A stretch of 64,000 nucleotides of DNA from assembly GCA_021432635.1 (NCBI GenBank), contig MU270039.1, positions 124,001 to 188,000 on the forward strand, read 5' to 3'. Positions 55,371-59,900 of this stretch are shown here, in pieces. Source of the stretch: Thozetella sp. PMI_491 (lineage: Eukaryota; Ascomycota; Sordariomycetes; Chaetosphaeriales; Chaetosphaeriaceae). Under the pieces are notes generated by a model, which was not told where the DNA came from, did no database searches, and saw nothing but the letters and a program-made list of their open reading frames with translations. The translations under genes and the position numbers were made by a program. Positions within the stretch are counted from its first letter, which is position 1. Each line of letters begins with the position of its first letter.

Positions 55371-56795
55371 ATGGCATCCCAGACACCGAAGAAATTCGAC
55401 TACCTCGCACTGGGCACCGGCGAGGCAGGCAAGTACATTGCCTGGATTCTCTCGCGAGATCACGGGAAGAGCTGCGCCGCGATTGAGCGAAAATGGATCG
55501 GCGGCTCCTGCCCCAACATCGCCTGCCTTCCGTCCAAGAACTTTCTTCACTCTGCAAACGTTGCCTACGACCTGCGCCAGGCCTCCTCATATGGCCTTGG
55601 TGCCTATGCCTCGGACACGGAGGCAGTCAAGTCTGACATGGCAGTCGTCAAGGATAGGAAGGTGAAGATGATCCACGGCCCAGGTGGCTTGATGGATCTG
55701 CATCTCGGTCTGTTCAAGGCAAATAATGTGCAAATCATTGAAGGAGAGGGGCGCTTTGTAGGACCTAAGACGATTCAAGTCGGAGATCAGCTCTACACTG
55801 CGGACAACATCGCCATCTCCACCGGCTCGTCCTCCGTGGTCGATGCACGCATCCCGGGATTGATCGAGTCTAAACCGCTTACGCATATCGAGGCGCTTGA
55901 TCTCGATAACCTCCCCTCTCACTTGATCATTCTCGGTGGGGGCTACATAGGCATCGAGTTCGCCCAGGCGTTCCGGAGATTCGGATCCCAGGTGACTGTC
56001 GTGGAGCACAATAAGCACGTGCTAAAGAATGAGGACGCCGATGTGGTTGAGTCACTCGTTGACATCCTGAAGGGTGAGGGCATAGAGTTCCATGTCTCAT
56101 CATCCGTGACACGAGTAGTGGGGACTTCCAGAAATACAGTCTTAGTCACGATTCAGCACGAGGGGAACACGACGCAGATCCAGGGATCTCATATTCTCGT
56201 ATCCGCGGGAAGATCGCCCAACACATCCAACATCGGACTCGAGGAGGTCGGAATCCAGCTCACCGGGACCGGCCACGTCAAAGTGGATGAGCAGCTTCGG
56301 ACGAGCGTAGACGGGGTCTTCGCAGTGGGTGACTGCGCAGGAAGTCCACACTTTACCCACGTCGCATTTGACGACTTCCGTCTTGTCCTGTCTACCATCA
56401 CAGGGGCGCCACGCCCGGGCGGCACCAGCGACCGCCAGATCCCATCGGCGCTGTTCACCACGCCCGAGCTCGTCCACGTAGGACTGAGGGAGCACGAGGC
56501 TGTGGCGCAAGGCGTCAAGTATCGACTGGCCAAGATACCCATGGCGGCGTTCCTTCGCACCCGCACCCTAGGGGACAGCCGAGGCTTCGCGAAGGCGCTG
56601 GTGGAGGCCGATGGGGATCGAATATTGGGGTTCACCGCCCTCGGCCCGTCCGCCGGAGAGCTGTTGCCGGTAGTGCAGCTAGCGATGAAGCTGGGTGCGA
56701 GCTATAAGGACATCGCCAGCCTTATCATCACCCATCCCACCATGGCCGAGGGGCTGGTTGCCCTATTTGGAGCCGTGCCTGCTCGTGCGGTGTAG
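55371..56795 (+). CDS. Class I pyridine nucleotide-disulfide oxidoreductase (lipoamide dehydrogenase/mercuric reductase-like)
   Basis: A single-exon gene of 474 residues. The FAD site LALGTGEAGK is followed by the redox-active motif GGSCPNIACLPSK, with Cys47 and Cys52 in CxxxxC spacing. The NAD(P) domain shows LIILGGGYIGIEFAQAFRRFG. The second FAD motif is VDGVFAVGDCAGSPHFTHVA. The dimer interface supplies ITHPTMAEGL, the His-Pro-Thr...Glu catalytic pair. There is no N-terminal heavy-metal domain and no C-terminal Cys pair, so classical mercuric reductase is unlikely. There is no mitochondrial presequence either, which argues against the housekeeping lipoamide dehydrogenase. It is probably a cytosolic reductase of this fold with an unknown disulfide or quinone substrate. 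Length is normal; no lesion. Confidence 0.86.
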   Translation: MASQTPKKFDYLALGTGEAGKYIAWILSRDHGKSCAAIERKWIGGSCPNIACLPSKNFLHSANVAYDLRQASSYGLGAYASDTEAVKSDMAVVKDRKVKMIHGPGGLMDLHLGLFKANNVQIIEGEGRFVGPKTIQVGDQLYTADNIAISTGSSSVVDARIPGLIESKPLTHIEALDLDNLPSHLIILGGGYIGIEFAQAFRRFGSQVTVVEHNKHVLKNEDADVVESLVDILKGEGIEFHVSSSVTRVVGTSRNTVLVTIQHEGNTTQIQGSHILVSAGRSPNTSNIGLEEVGIQLTGTGHVKVDEQLRTSVDGVFAVGDCAGSPHFTHVAFDDFRLVLSTITGAPRPGGTSDRQIPSALFTTPELVHVGLREHEAVAQGVKYRLAKIPMAAFLRTRTLGDSRGFAKALVEADGDRILGFTALGPSAGELLPVVQLAMKLGASYKDIASLIITHPTMAEGLVALFGAVPARAV

Positions 56796-56970: not shown

Positions 56971-59900
56971 TCAGTATGCCCCCTGCCTTTCTTCCCAACT
57001 CGGCGCATTGACCAACTCTACAGCCTTCCGCCCCGTCCAAACAGGCGTCTTTGCCGCAAGCTGAAAGCCGCTCGCCGGGACCTTGGCGCCCGTGTCCTGT
57101 GTTGCCCACACTGCTAGACCGACCCAATTGTCGCCATTGTAGTTGAGGATCCCCTCGGGCACGGGGAAGACGGTCTGCGGGCCGACGTTGCTGACGTAGC
57201 GTCCAAACTGGAACCCGTTAACGTACAACCATGCTCGGTACGGGTTTCCAGCAGCCGCAGCAGTGTCGTTGCCAAAGGTGAAGCTGAGCGGGATGTCGAA
57301 TTTGTCACTAGGCAAATCCAGGGTCAGCTTGGCGGCGTAGAATGCCACGCCAGCCTTGTCCAGCCCAGCAAACGGGCTACCCGAGCCGAATTTGGCGATA
57401 GGCGGCGCAGGCTGGTGGTACCCCTGCCGCTCGACGAATAACCCTCCCTCGTTCAACGGCCCACGTACAGGGTCCGCAAAGTCCTCGCCGCCAAGATTTC
57501 CCGTAAGCTTCCACGTGATATATGTCGACCCGTTAGCAAAGCCGGAGACTAGTTTGTAGTCCAAGATGCCGCGCGCGTCTTTCGTCCAGTCTGCACCAAC
57601 GGACCAATCTTCATCAAGCCCCATATTGTCGATAAGAACAGTAAAGACGTGGGTAGAATCCTTACTGAGGCTGGGAAGTGTGAAGTTGTCTTGGTGCGAT
57701 TGGGAGGCGTCGGTACCTGCCCAACTTCCAATGAAAGCGCCGTCTAGCCACACAGAGGCTCCATATGCGCTGCCTCCCTGCGTGGAAAGGTATAATTGTG
57801 TCTCCGTCCCAGAAGCCGTGAAGTGTCCTCGGTAGAGCAGGGCTCCGGTGTGGTAGCCGTAGTCGGACGCGAATAGAGAGGTCGGGGTCAACAAGGGCTG
57901 CACGTACGTGTTGTTTGTGGACTCGTGGTCCGCATTCGTCCAAGCCGAGTCGTCGTAGTTATCTTGAAGTTCGGGGAGCGAATCGATGTACTTCCAGTCG
58001 AGCTGAGAGAGATCGGGGATGCTCATATCAGGCGCAGAATAGCCAGGATCCACAACCCAGTTCCCTAGACTGTTGACCGAGTACTTCAGAGACTCACTGT
58101 TAACTTGCAACAGCTTGACGCTGGGTGGGACGCCGATAATTTCCAGGCTGGTAGTGCTGTTGAAATCAGCCTGGACTTGCAATGTGGACCCGGTGACTTC
58201 CGCCGAGCGGACAAGATATCCTCCGTTGACTACCAGGGAGTATCCCGGGGTACCGGGAACCCAGTAGTTATACGCAGAGTTTCGGTCTAATTTGCCTATT
58301 AGCATGGGCCGTCTCGAAGGGGTTGAATGCTCGATATGCTTAATCTTACCGAGGATGTAGACTTGGAGACTCCCAATCTGTACCACCCTACGTTCCGTGC
58401 TGGTCTCCCACTGTATCACGACGTATTCTCCGTTTACGTTTTGCGCGGTGACTCCCGTGCCCGTTGCTTGCCAATCCGTAGCTCCGGCAGAGATGCCGAT
58501 TTCGTGCAGTTCTCCGGGCCCGCCATAAACAACCAGAACCGTCCTGTCTCCAAATTTCTGCCAGGTGAAGATCTCCGCTGTTGAGTAGACAACTGTGGCA
58601 TCCCCAACAGGGTAGTCCGTTACGTGAATCTTCGAGTCCCGACGAGAAAGAGTGAGAGATCCCCCGAGCTGCGGAATGGACAAAGTACCGACAGAGGTGG
58701 GCAAGTTGAGGGTGTACGAAGCCGAGCCGGTGTCTTGGTAGTCGGTGTGTCGCACGACGTAAAAGGACCCCTTATTTCCGGTGACTGGTGTCACGGTGAT
58801 CGCCGTGTTTGAGCTGTATGTACCCACTGTGCCGTTTCCCGCTGTCGCGATCAGGTAGCCGGGAGACGCTTTGAGGAATTGGGCTTCAAGTTTAAGCTCT
58901 GAATACTTCTCTCTGGAAACCGTACGGTCCTCGGCGATCACCTGGATCGGATATTAGAGTTTCGAAATTTCAAGACGTTCGAAAACATACCGCAGCATAA
59001 TCGTACGATGTGTAACCGCCGGGATGGCCAAGATTTCCCCAGTTGGTACCTCCGAAAATCTAGAGACATTTAATTGGTATTAGTGATTCTGGGATAGGGA
59101 GGTCGCTAGCGTACCATATAGATGTTGTAGATCGTAACTCCGGCAGCGTAATTATTCTTGTAGAAAACTCGAACCTGTTCCTGGTTGAGAAGTTCTTCGC
59201 ATTGAGGAAAACCCCAGCCTCCCCACGGATCAAACGAGCCCCCCTAGCAAATTATTAGAAAATTATCCTCGCTGAAAGGCAACCTCGGACGTGGTAAACC
59301 GCGTACTTGAAACTAAGTCTTGTTAGGAATGCTTTCCACAGGAGATAGGAGAATCACATACCTCAGGGATCGCGTACGGAGTCGTAGGGCTCTGTTTCAA
59401 GTGTGTCGCGCGCCAGTTGGTAGGCAAAGCGTTTGCTGGCCATACAGTTGGGTTCCCGCAGTCGAACCCAAGCGGATACCCGTCATGGCCCTAGTGATGT
59501 TAGTTTAGTGCTGGCGATTTGCAGCGGCATTTCCTATAGCCATCAACTGGCCAAGGCAATATGGGAGTAATTTGTATGGCCTTTGCGTGTAGCGATATGC
59601 GAAAGAATGGAATTCCAACTCACGTAAATATCGACCTGACCTTCACCCGACCCTGGAACATTGTGGCCCTGAGCAGAGGCGTCGTTGCTGATGAGTGGAA
59701 CAACGATCCCGGCTTTGCGAGCTTGATCCTCAACATATTGCATGTAGGCTGGGTCTGGGAAATAGACCCCCGAGGCGGCGCCCGTGTACTCATTCTCCGG
59801 TTGGTATAGGATCACTGGACCACCATTGGTAATCTGAGCGTCCGCAATGATCTTACCGATGCTCTCCGCGTAGCTATAAACTCGTCAGCGAGTGGGCTGG

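Follow-up and report, generated by a model that had tools for sequence, protein, structure and literature searches.

The window analysed here, a stretch of 64,000 nucleotides from a 72.3-Mb genome in 157 contigs, carries on its minus strand a GH35 beta-galactosidase gene, and it raises the question of whether two residues beside the catalytic nucleophile of this enzyme are encoded by an exon of only six nucleotides, as had been proposed from an initial reading of the DNA (the original prediction). Our comparison of the sequence with its relatives indicates that the gene very probably does carry such an exon, directly after the catalytic Glu codon.

The beta-galactosidase gene and its predicted 6-nt exon

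The features concerned are as follows.

60494-56971, minus strand: fungal GH35 beta-galactosidase gene (gene model, phmmer against PDB, Pfam)
59490-59362, minus strand: exon 4, whose last codon is that of the nucleophile, Glu296 (ATC CCT GAG, IPE; gene model, PDB alignment)
59361-59313, minus strand: intron 4, 49 nt, GTATGT...CTAAC...TTAG (position and phase common to the paralog L016)
59312-59307, minus strand: predicted micro-exon 5, TTTCAA, Phe297-Gln298 (gene model, shuffles, paralogs, spliced alignment)
59306-59244, minus strand: intron 5, 63 nt, GTACGC...CTAAT...CTAG (not in six aligned GH35 paralogs)
59243-59115, minus strand: exon 6, beginning GGG GGC TCG TTT GAT (GGSFD, within GGSFDPWGG; gene model)
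59114-59060, minus strand: intron 6, with the hexamer GTACGC as its donor, identical to that 3' of the micro-exon (gene model)

The gene model encodes 999 amino acids in nine exons (412, 97, 250, 129, 6, 129, 69, 592 and 1316 nt) separated by eight GT-AG introns (57, 55, 133, 49, 63, 55, 49 and 63 nt in gene order). The original assignment to GH35 agrees with Pfam, which finds GH35 (301.6 bits), BetaGal_dom2 (203.8), BetaGal_dom3 (72) and ABD2 (184.2) on the protein, and BetaGal_gal-bd at 26.9 bits, slightly below its cut-off of 27.3. A phmmer search of PDB gives near-full-length matches to five distinct sequences, 3og2, 1tg7, 5ifp, 5ift and 4iug (E reported as 0), all of which we take to be fungal enzymes. 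The fungal multi-domain (LacA) type of GH35 is defined here by a catalytic GH35 domain plus BetaGal_dom2, BetaGal_dom3 and ABD2 and a length of about 1000 amino acids; the 999-aa protein has these domains and this length, and with the micro-exon included its nucleophile Glu is followed by F-Q-G-G, in the form IPEFQGG. Apart from exon 5, the gene encodes an ordinary predicted fungal GH35 enzyme. One loop (VPGTPGYS, residues ~571-578, in 58286-56971) has 14 residues fewer than in three PDB relatives, apparently a true deletion rather than a missed exon, because the loop lies inside one exon. On the plus strand an intron-free 474-aa reading frame (55371-56795, GGSCPNIACLPSK), which by eye resembles pyridine nucleotide-disulfide oxidoreductases, points towards the beta-galactosidase gene and ends 175 bp from its stop codon.

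Both edges of the region at issue lie where they were first placed: the nucleophile codon closes exon 4 at 59362, and GGSFDP opens the following clear exon at 59243. The nucleophile column is identified by the PDB alignment, in which A. niger 5ifp reads IVEFQGG and the altered chain 5ift, presumably the nucleophile mutant of the same enzyme, reads IVQFQGG. In the 118 nt separating exons 4 and 6, TTTCAA occurs once, at exactly the coordinates proposed, with ACTTAG before it and GTACGC after it, and divides the remainder into introns of 49 and 63 nt. Phe-Gln is also encoded by TTTCAG at 59277-59272, but the flanking CC and CG offer no splice sites, so this pair cannot be an exon. By micro-exon we mean an exon of at most 30 nt that is spliced into mRNA, is bounded by AG and GT and has workable introns on either side; the predicted TTTCAA exon has both the AG/GT bounds and the workable neighbouring introns. 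Retention of intron 4, intron 5 or both brings the reading frame to a stop codon (residue 309 or 319), and skipping of the micro-exon leaves a frame open for 997 amino acids, two residues short beside the nucleophile.

Residues at the nucleophile and alternative readings

The original prediction held that the family carries Phe-Gln after the nucleophile, and this is what its relatives display. Of four printed PDB alignments, three have EFQGG and that of 5ift has QFQGG, with no gap at FQ in any. A GH35 search of the genome gave 19 exon-sized matches (the window gene included), from which nine further loci were retrieved. Six of these (L010, L012, L013, L014, L015 and L016) can be aligned over the nucleophile region; five read E-F/Y-Q-G/A-G, and L015 reads E-F-E-G-G. 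For the other three (L011, L017 and L018), tblastn found nothing to match near the nucleophile, and they are excluded from the counts; in L011 the nucleophile part is present according to Pfam, with A-E-Y-Y unbroken by eye. The most similar paralog, L016 on contig C67 (67.4% of 353 residues), has at 2717-2776 a phase-0 intron exactly after the Glu codon (GAG/GTAAGC...ATAG/TTTCAG), and GCG GGC follows. Inclusion of the 6-nt exon at 59312-59307 would restore E-F-Q-G-G as proposed, within the full 999-aa frame and matching the TTTCAG that follows the same intron in L016, which is the strongest independent evidence for the exon. Over a 120-aa stretch the Pfam GH35 score is 87.7 bits with FQ and 76.4 without it.

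How often such an arrangement would arise by chance was estimated by dinucleotide shuffling of the 118 nt, repeated 200,000 times, and counting of the pattern AG-TTYCAR-GT. The pattern appeared anywhere in the stretch in 181 shuffles and, if each intron had to measure 40 nt or more, in 59; a Phe-Gln-like pair (BLOSUM62 sum at least 6) with the same intron limit appeared in 643. On both strands of the 64-kb window AG-TTYCAR-GT has a single occurrence, the micro-exon.

Splice sites were scored against 23 reference introns, six from the window gene (excluding the two at issue) and 17 of 19 from residues 231-385 of the paralogs; two L014 introns of doubtful standing (142 and 72 nt) are not among them. 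The reference donors range from 4.6 to 10.2 and the acceptors from 2.8 to 6.1. Intron 4 has a donor of 6.7 and an acceptor of 3.7, which exceeds only three of the 23 reference acceptors; the intron 5 acceptor scores 5.2, and its donor, CAA/GTACGC at the end of the micro-exon, scores 4.0 and is weaker than all 23 reference donors. The letters GTACGC are also used as donor by one L016 intron, as well as by intron 6 of the same gene. In introns 4 and 5 alike, CTRAY is present without mismatch 10-11 nt upstream of the acceptor; 19 of the 23 reference introns likewise contain a perfect copy somewhere in the scanned stretch. A purpose-built spliced aligner, given four of the six paralog proteins (L010, L012, L013 and L016) as queries, placed the TTTCAA exon with all four at intron penalties of 6, 10, 15 and 20 and joined exons 4 and 6 directly at 25. 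This test is not fully blind, because the paralog proteins were read using the window model that contains FQ.

The plainest competing reading is that the 118 nt are one intron, with 59362 joined to 59243, Phe-Gln lacking and the TTTCAA between AG and GT a coincidence; the enzyme would then have a two-residue deletion in its active site and would probably be inactive. The outer sites are good (donor 6.7, acceptor 5.2), the frame stays open to 997 amino acids, the last branch-like CTAAT would serve a 118-nt intron equally, and the aligner prefers this joining at its highest penalty. However, two residues occupy this place in all six aligned paralogs and all four printed PDB alignments, L016 has TTTCAG immediately 3' of the same acceptor position, only 59 of the 200,000 shuffles reproduce the pattern with introns of 40 nt or more, and an intron of 118 nt would stand against reference lengths of 46-63 nt in 22 of 23 cases (133 nt in the other; the two omitted L014 introns are 72 and 142 nt). 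We consider this reading distinctly unlikely. A stwintron, in which an internal intron interrupts the splice signal of an external one so that the 118 nt leave stepwise, has precedents in filamentous fungi (PMC6616335, excerpted text), but no coding letters remain after its removal, and we set it aside as extremely unlikely because Phe-Gln would still be missing, while two plain introns would account for both residues.

A different micro-exon within the same 118 nt fares worse still. Twelve AG...GT candidates have flanks of at least 35 nt, and those that are in frame and free of stops encode FQ, YA or YAVYH. The YA candidate, TACGCG (Tyr-Ala; acceptor AAG, donor GTTTAC), is in frame, leaves two introns of 56 nt each and costs only 1.9 Pfam bits (85.8 against 87.7 for FQ); but its donor scores 0.1, far under every reference donor, its acceptor (2.8) equals the lowest reference, and neither the six aligned paralogs nor the four PDB sequences with printed alignments have YA at this place. 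It was rejected on its splice-site scores, and its probability is negligible. What has some chance of being true, and is compatible with a genuine micro-exon, is that both forms are made, occasional skipping, as noise or under particular conditions, giving a second protein that lacks two residues and has an impaired active site. Direct joining would use good sites and keep the frame, so skipped transcripts are possible; six is a multiple of three, the micro-exon donor is below all the reference donors, and a glucose-dependent micro-exon of 20 nt is on record from Trichoderma virens Xlr2 (PMC11121469, excerpted text). No sign of regulation is seen in the sequence, however, and we regard this as a tentative possibility.

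Splicing of the micro-exon and comparison with known cases

With considerable confidence we favour a genuine coding exon of 6 nt that is presumably included in most transcripts and results from a second phase-0 intron six nucleotides past the one shared with L016. The phase-0 intron after the nucleophile codon is common to L016 and the window gene, and the second phase-0 intron, six nucleotides further on, would isolate Phe-Gln. Introns of about 50-60 nt probably have their two splice sites paired with each other across the intron (intron definition). Each of the two short introns would be removed as its own unit, in succession, so that the splicing machinery would never have to span the 6-nt exon in order to recognise it; after one of the introns had gone, Phe-Gln would be joined to an exon of normal size. 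An exon of 6 nt is therefore no obstacle if the introns are removed successively, and the original remark that exons this short are hard to splice was probably overstated for introns of such lengths. A more speculative idea, which we think very unlikely, is that the micro-exon acts as a built-in switch by virtue of its weak donor and a length that keeps the frame; if skipped under some condition, it would leave a beta-galactosidase that still folds and binds galactose but has no catalytic activity.

The original prediction also stressed that the micro-exon sits at the active site. Its place beside the nucleophile stands; its unusualness was overstated, since fungal exons of 5-6 bp and micro-exons at glycosidase active sites have been published. 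According to the excerpts of the papers on which this comparison draws, the smallest exons of the bglA beta-glycosidase genes of basidiomycete yeasts measure 5 and 6 bp in two of four tabulated genes, with no position given relative to the active site (PMC9142197); like the window gene these are fungal glycosidase genes with short introns, but they belong to another beta-glycosidase gene, with more introns, in basidiomycetes. The P450 genes of Phanerochaete chrysosporium likewise have exons down to 6 bp (two amino acids) with small introns on either side (PMC1184071), although in a different gene family and again in a basidiomycete. Closest in position are the plant GH32 enzymes (invertases and fructan hydrolases), where a glycoside hydrolase also has a micro-exon at its active site: a 9-nt exon of the invertases, unannotated in rice and maize, supplies part of the beta-fructosidase motif (PMC8831610), and a chicory 1-FEH IIb allele without the 9-bp exon, which carries an active-site residue, is putatively non-functional (PMC4477480). 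The plant exon differs in being 9 nt long and in itself holding the active-site residue, whereas the nucleophile codon of the window gene ends the preceding exon. Xlr2 of T. virens shares with the window gene a filamentous fungal host, a micro-exon and a role in carbon metabolism, but it is a transcription factor whose 20-nt micro-exon has been found glucose-dependent by RNA-seq (PMC11121469). That micro-exon is missing from the JGI gene model, and the abstract describes functional micro-exons as previously undescribed in filamentous fungi (PMC11121469). For ascomycete GH35 genes, intron counts of 5, 5, 8, 6 and 11 are given for A. niger, and the excerpted text does not mention a micro-exon (PMC10287015); no title or abstract opening that we found in the open-licence literature describes a micro-exon in GH35 genes of fungi. 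With tiny exons already known from both fungi and plants, the present case is neat but ordinary. The skipped form, two residues short, would probably be inactive, in keeping with the chicory 1-FEH IIb allele (PMC4477480, excerpted text). Gene finders would probably miss the 6-nt exon and so predict a two-residue deletion in the active site, and cloning of such a predicted gene would probably give a dead lactase.

Paralogs and the origin of intron 5

Since L016 has the same first intron and none after Phe-Gln, the micro-exon appears to be the outcome of a second intron lying six nucleotides past the common one. All six aligned paralogs, L016 included, lack introns in the interval 297-299, and L016 and the window gene have introns in common at residues 170, 253, 296, 341 and 364. 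The tree of the seven rows leaves unsettled the fork among the window gene, L016 and the group of L010, L012 and L013, so that gain of intron 5 in the window gene is the simpler reading, though it may instead have been lost elsewhere. The window gene and its paralog on C67 thus suggest a route by which a micro-exon may originate, a second intron entering six nucleotides from an existing one, and the pair can be compared directly.

An introner-like origin of intron 5 was considered and rejected, near-identical copies being absent: a search of the genome (very common words skipped) returned one match, the intron itself. Similarly, the 221 nt around intron 5 match only themselves in the assembly, in which no second, allele-like copy was found. 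Searches for related loci in viral, bacterial and archaeal collections gave no matches among viral contigs and five pattern matches among genome contigs, none of which was confirmed.

Elsewhere in the catalytic domain of GH35, the paralogs also differ in where their introns lie. An intron at residue 264 is in phase 1 in L010, L012 and L013 and in phase 0 in L016, and one at residue 305, in phase 2, is found in L010 and L012. These differences in position suggest repeated gain, loss or shifting of introns in these genes.
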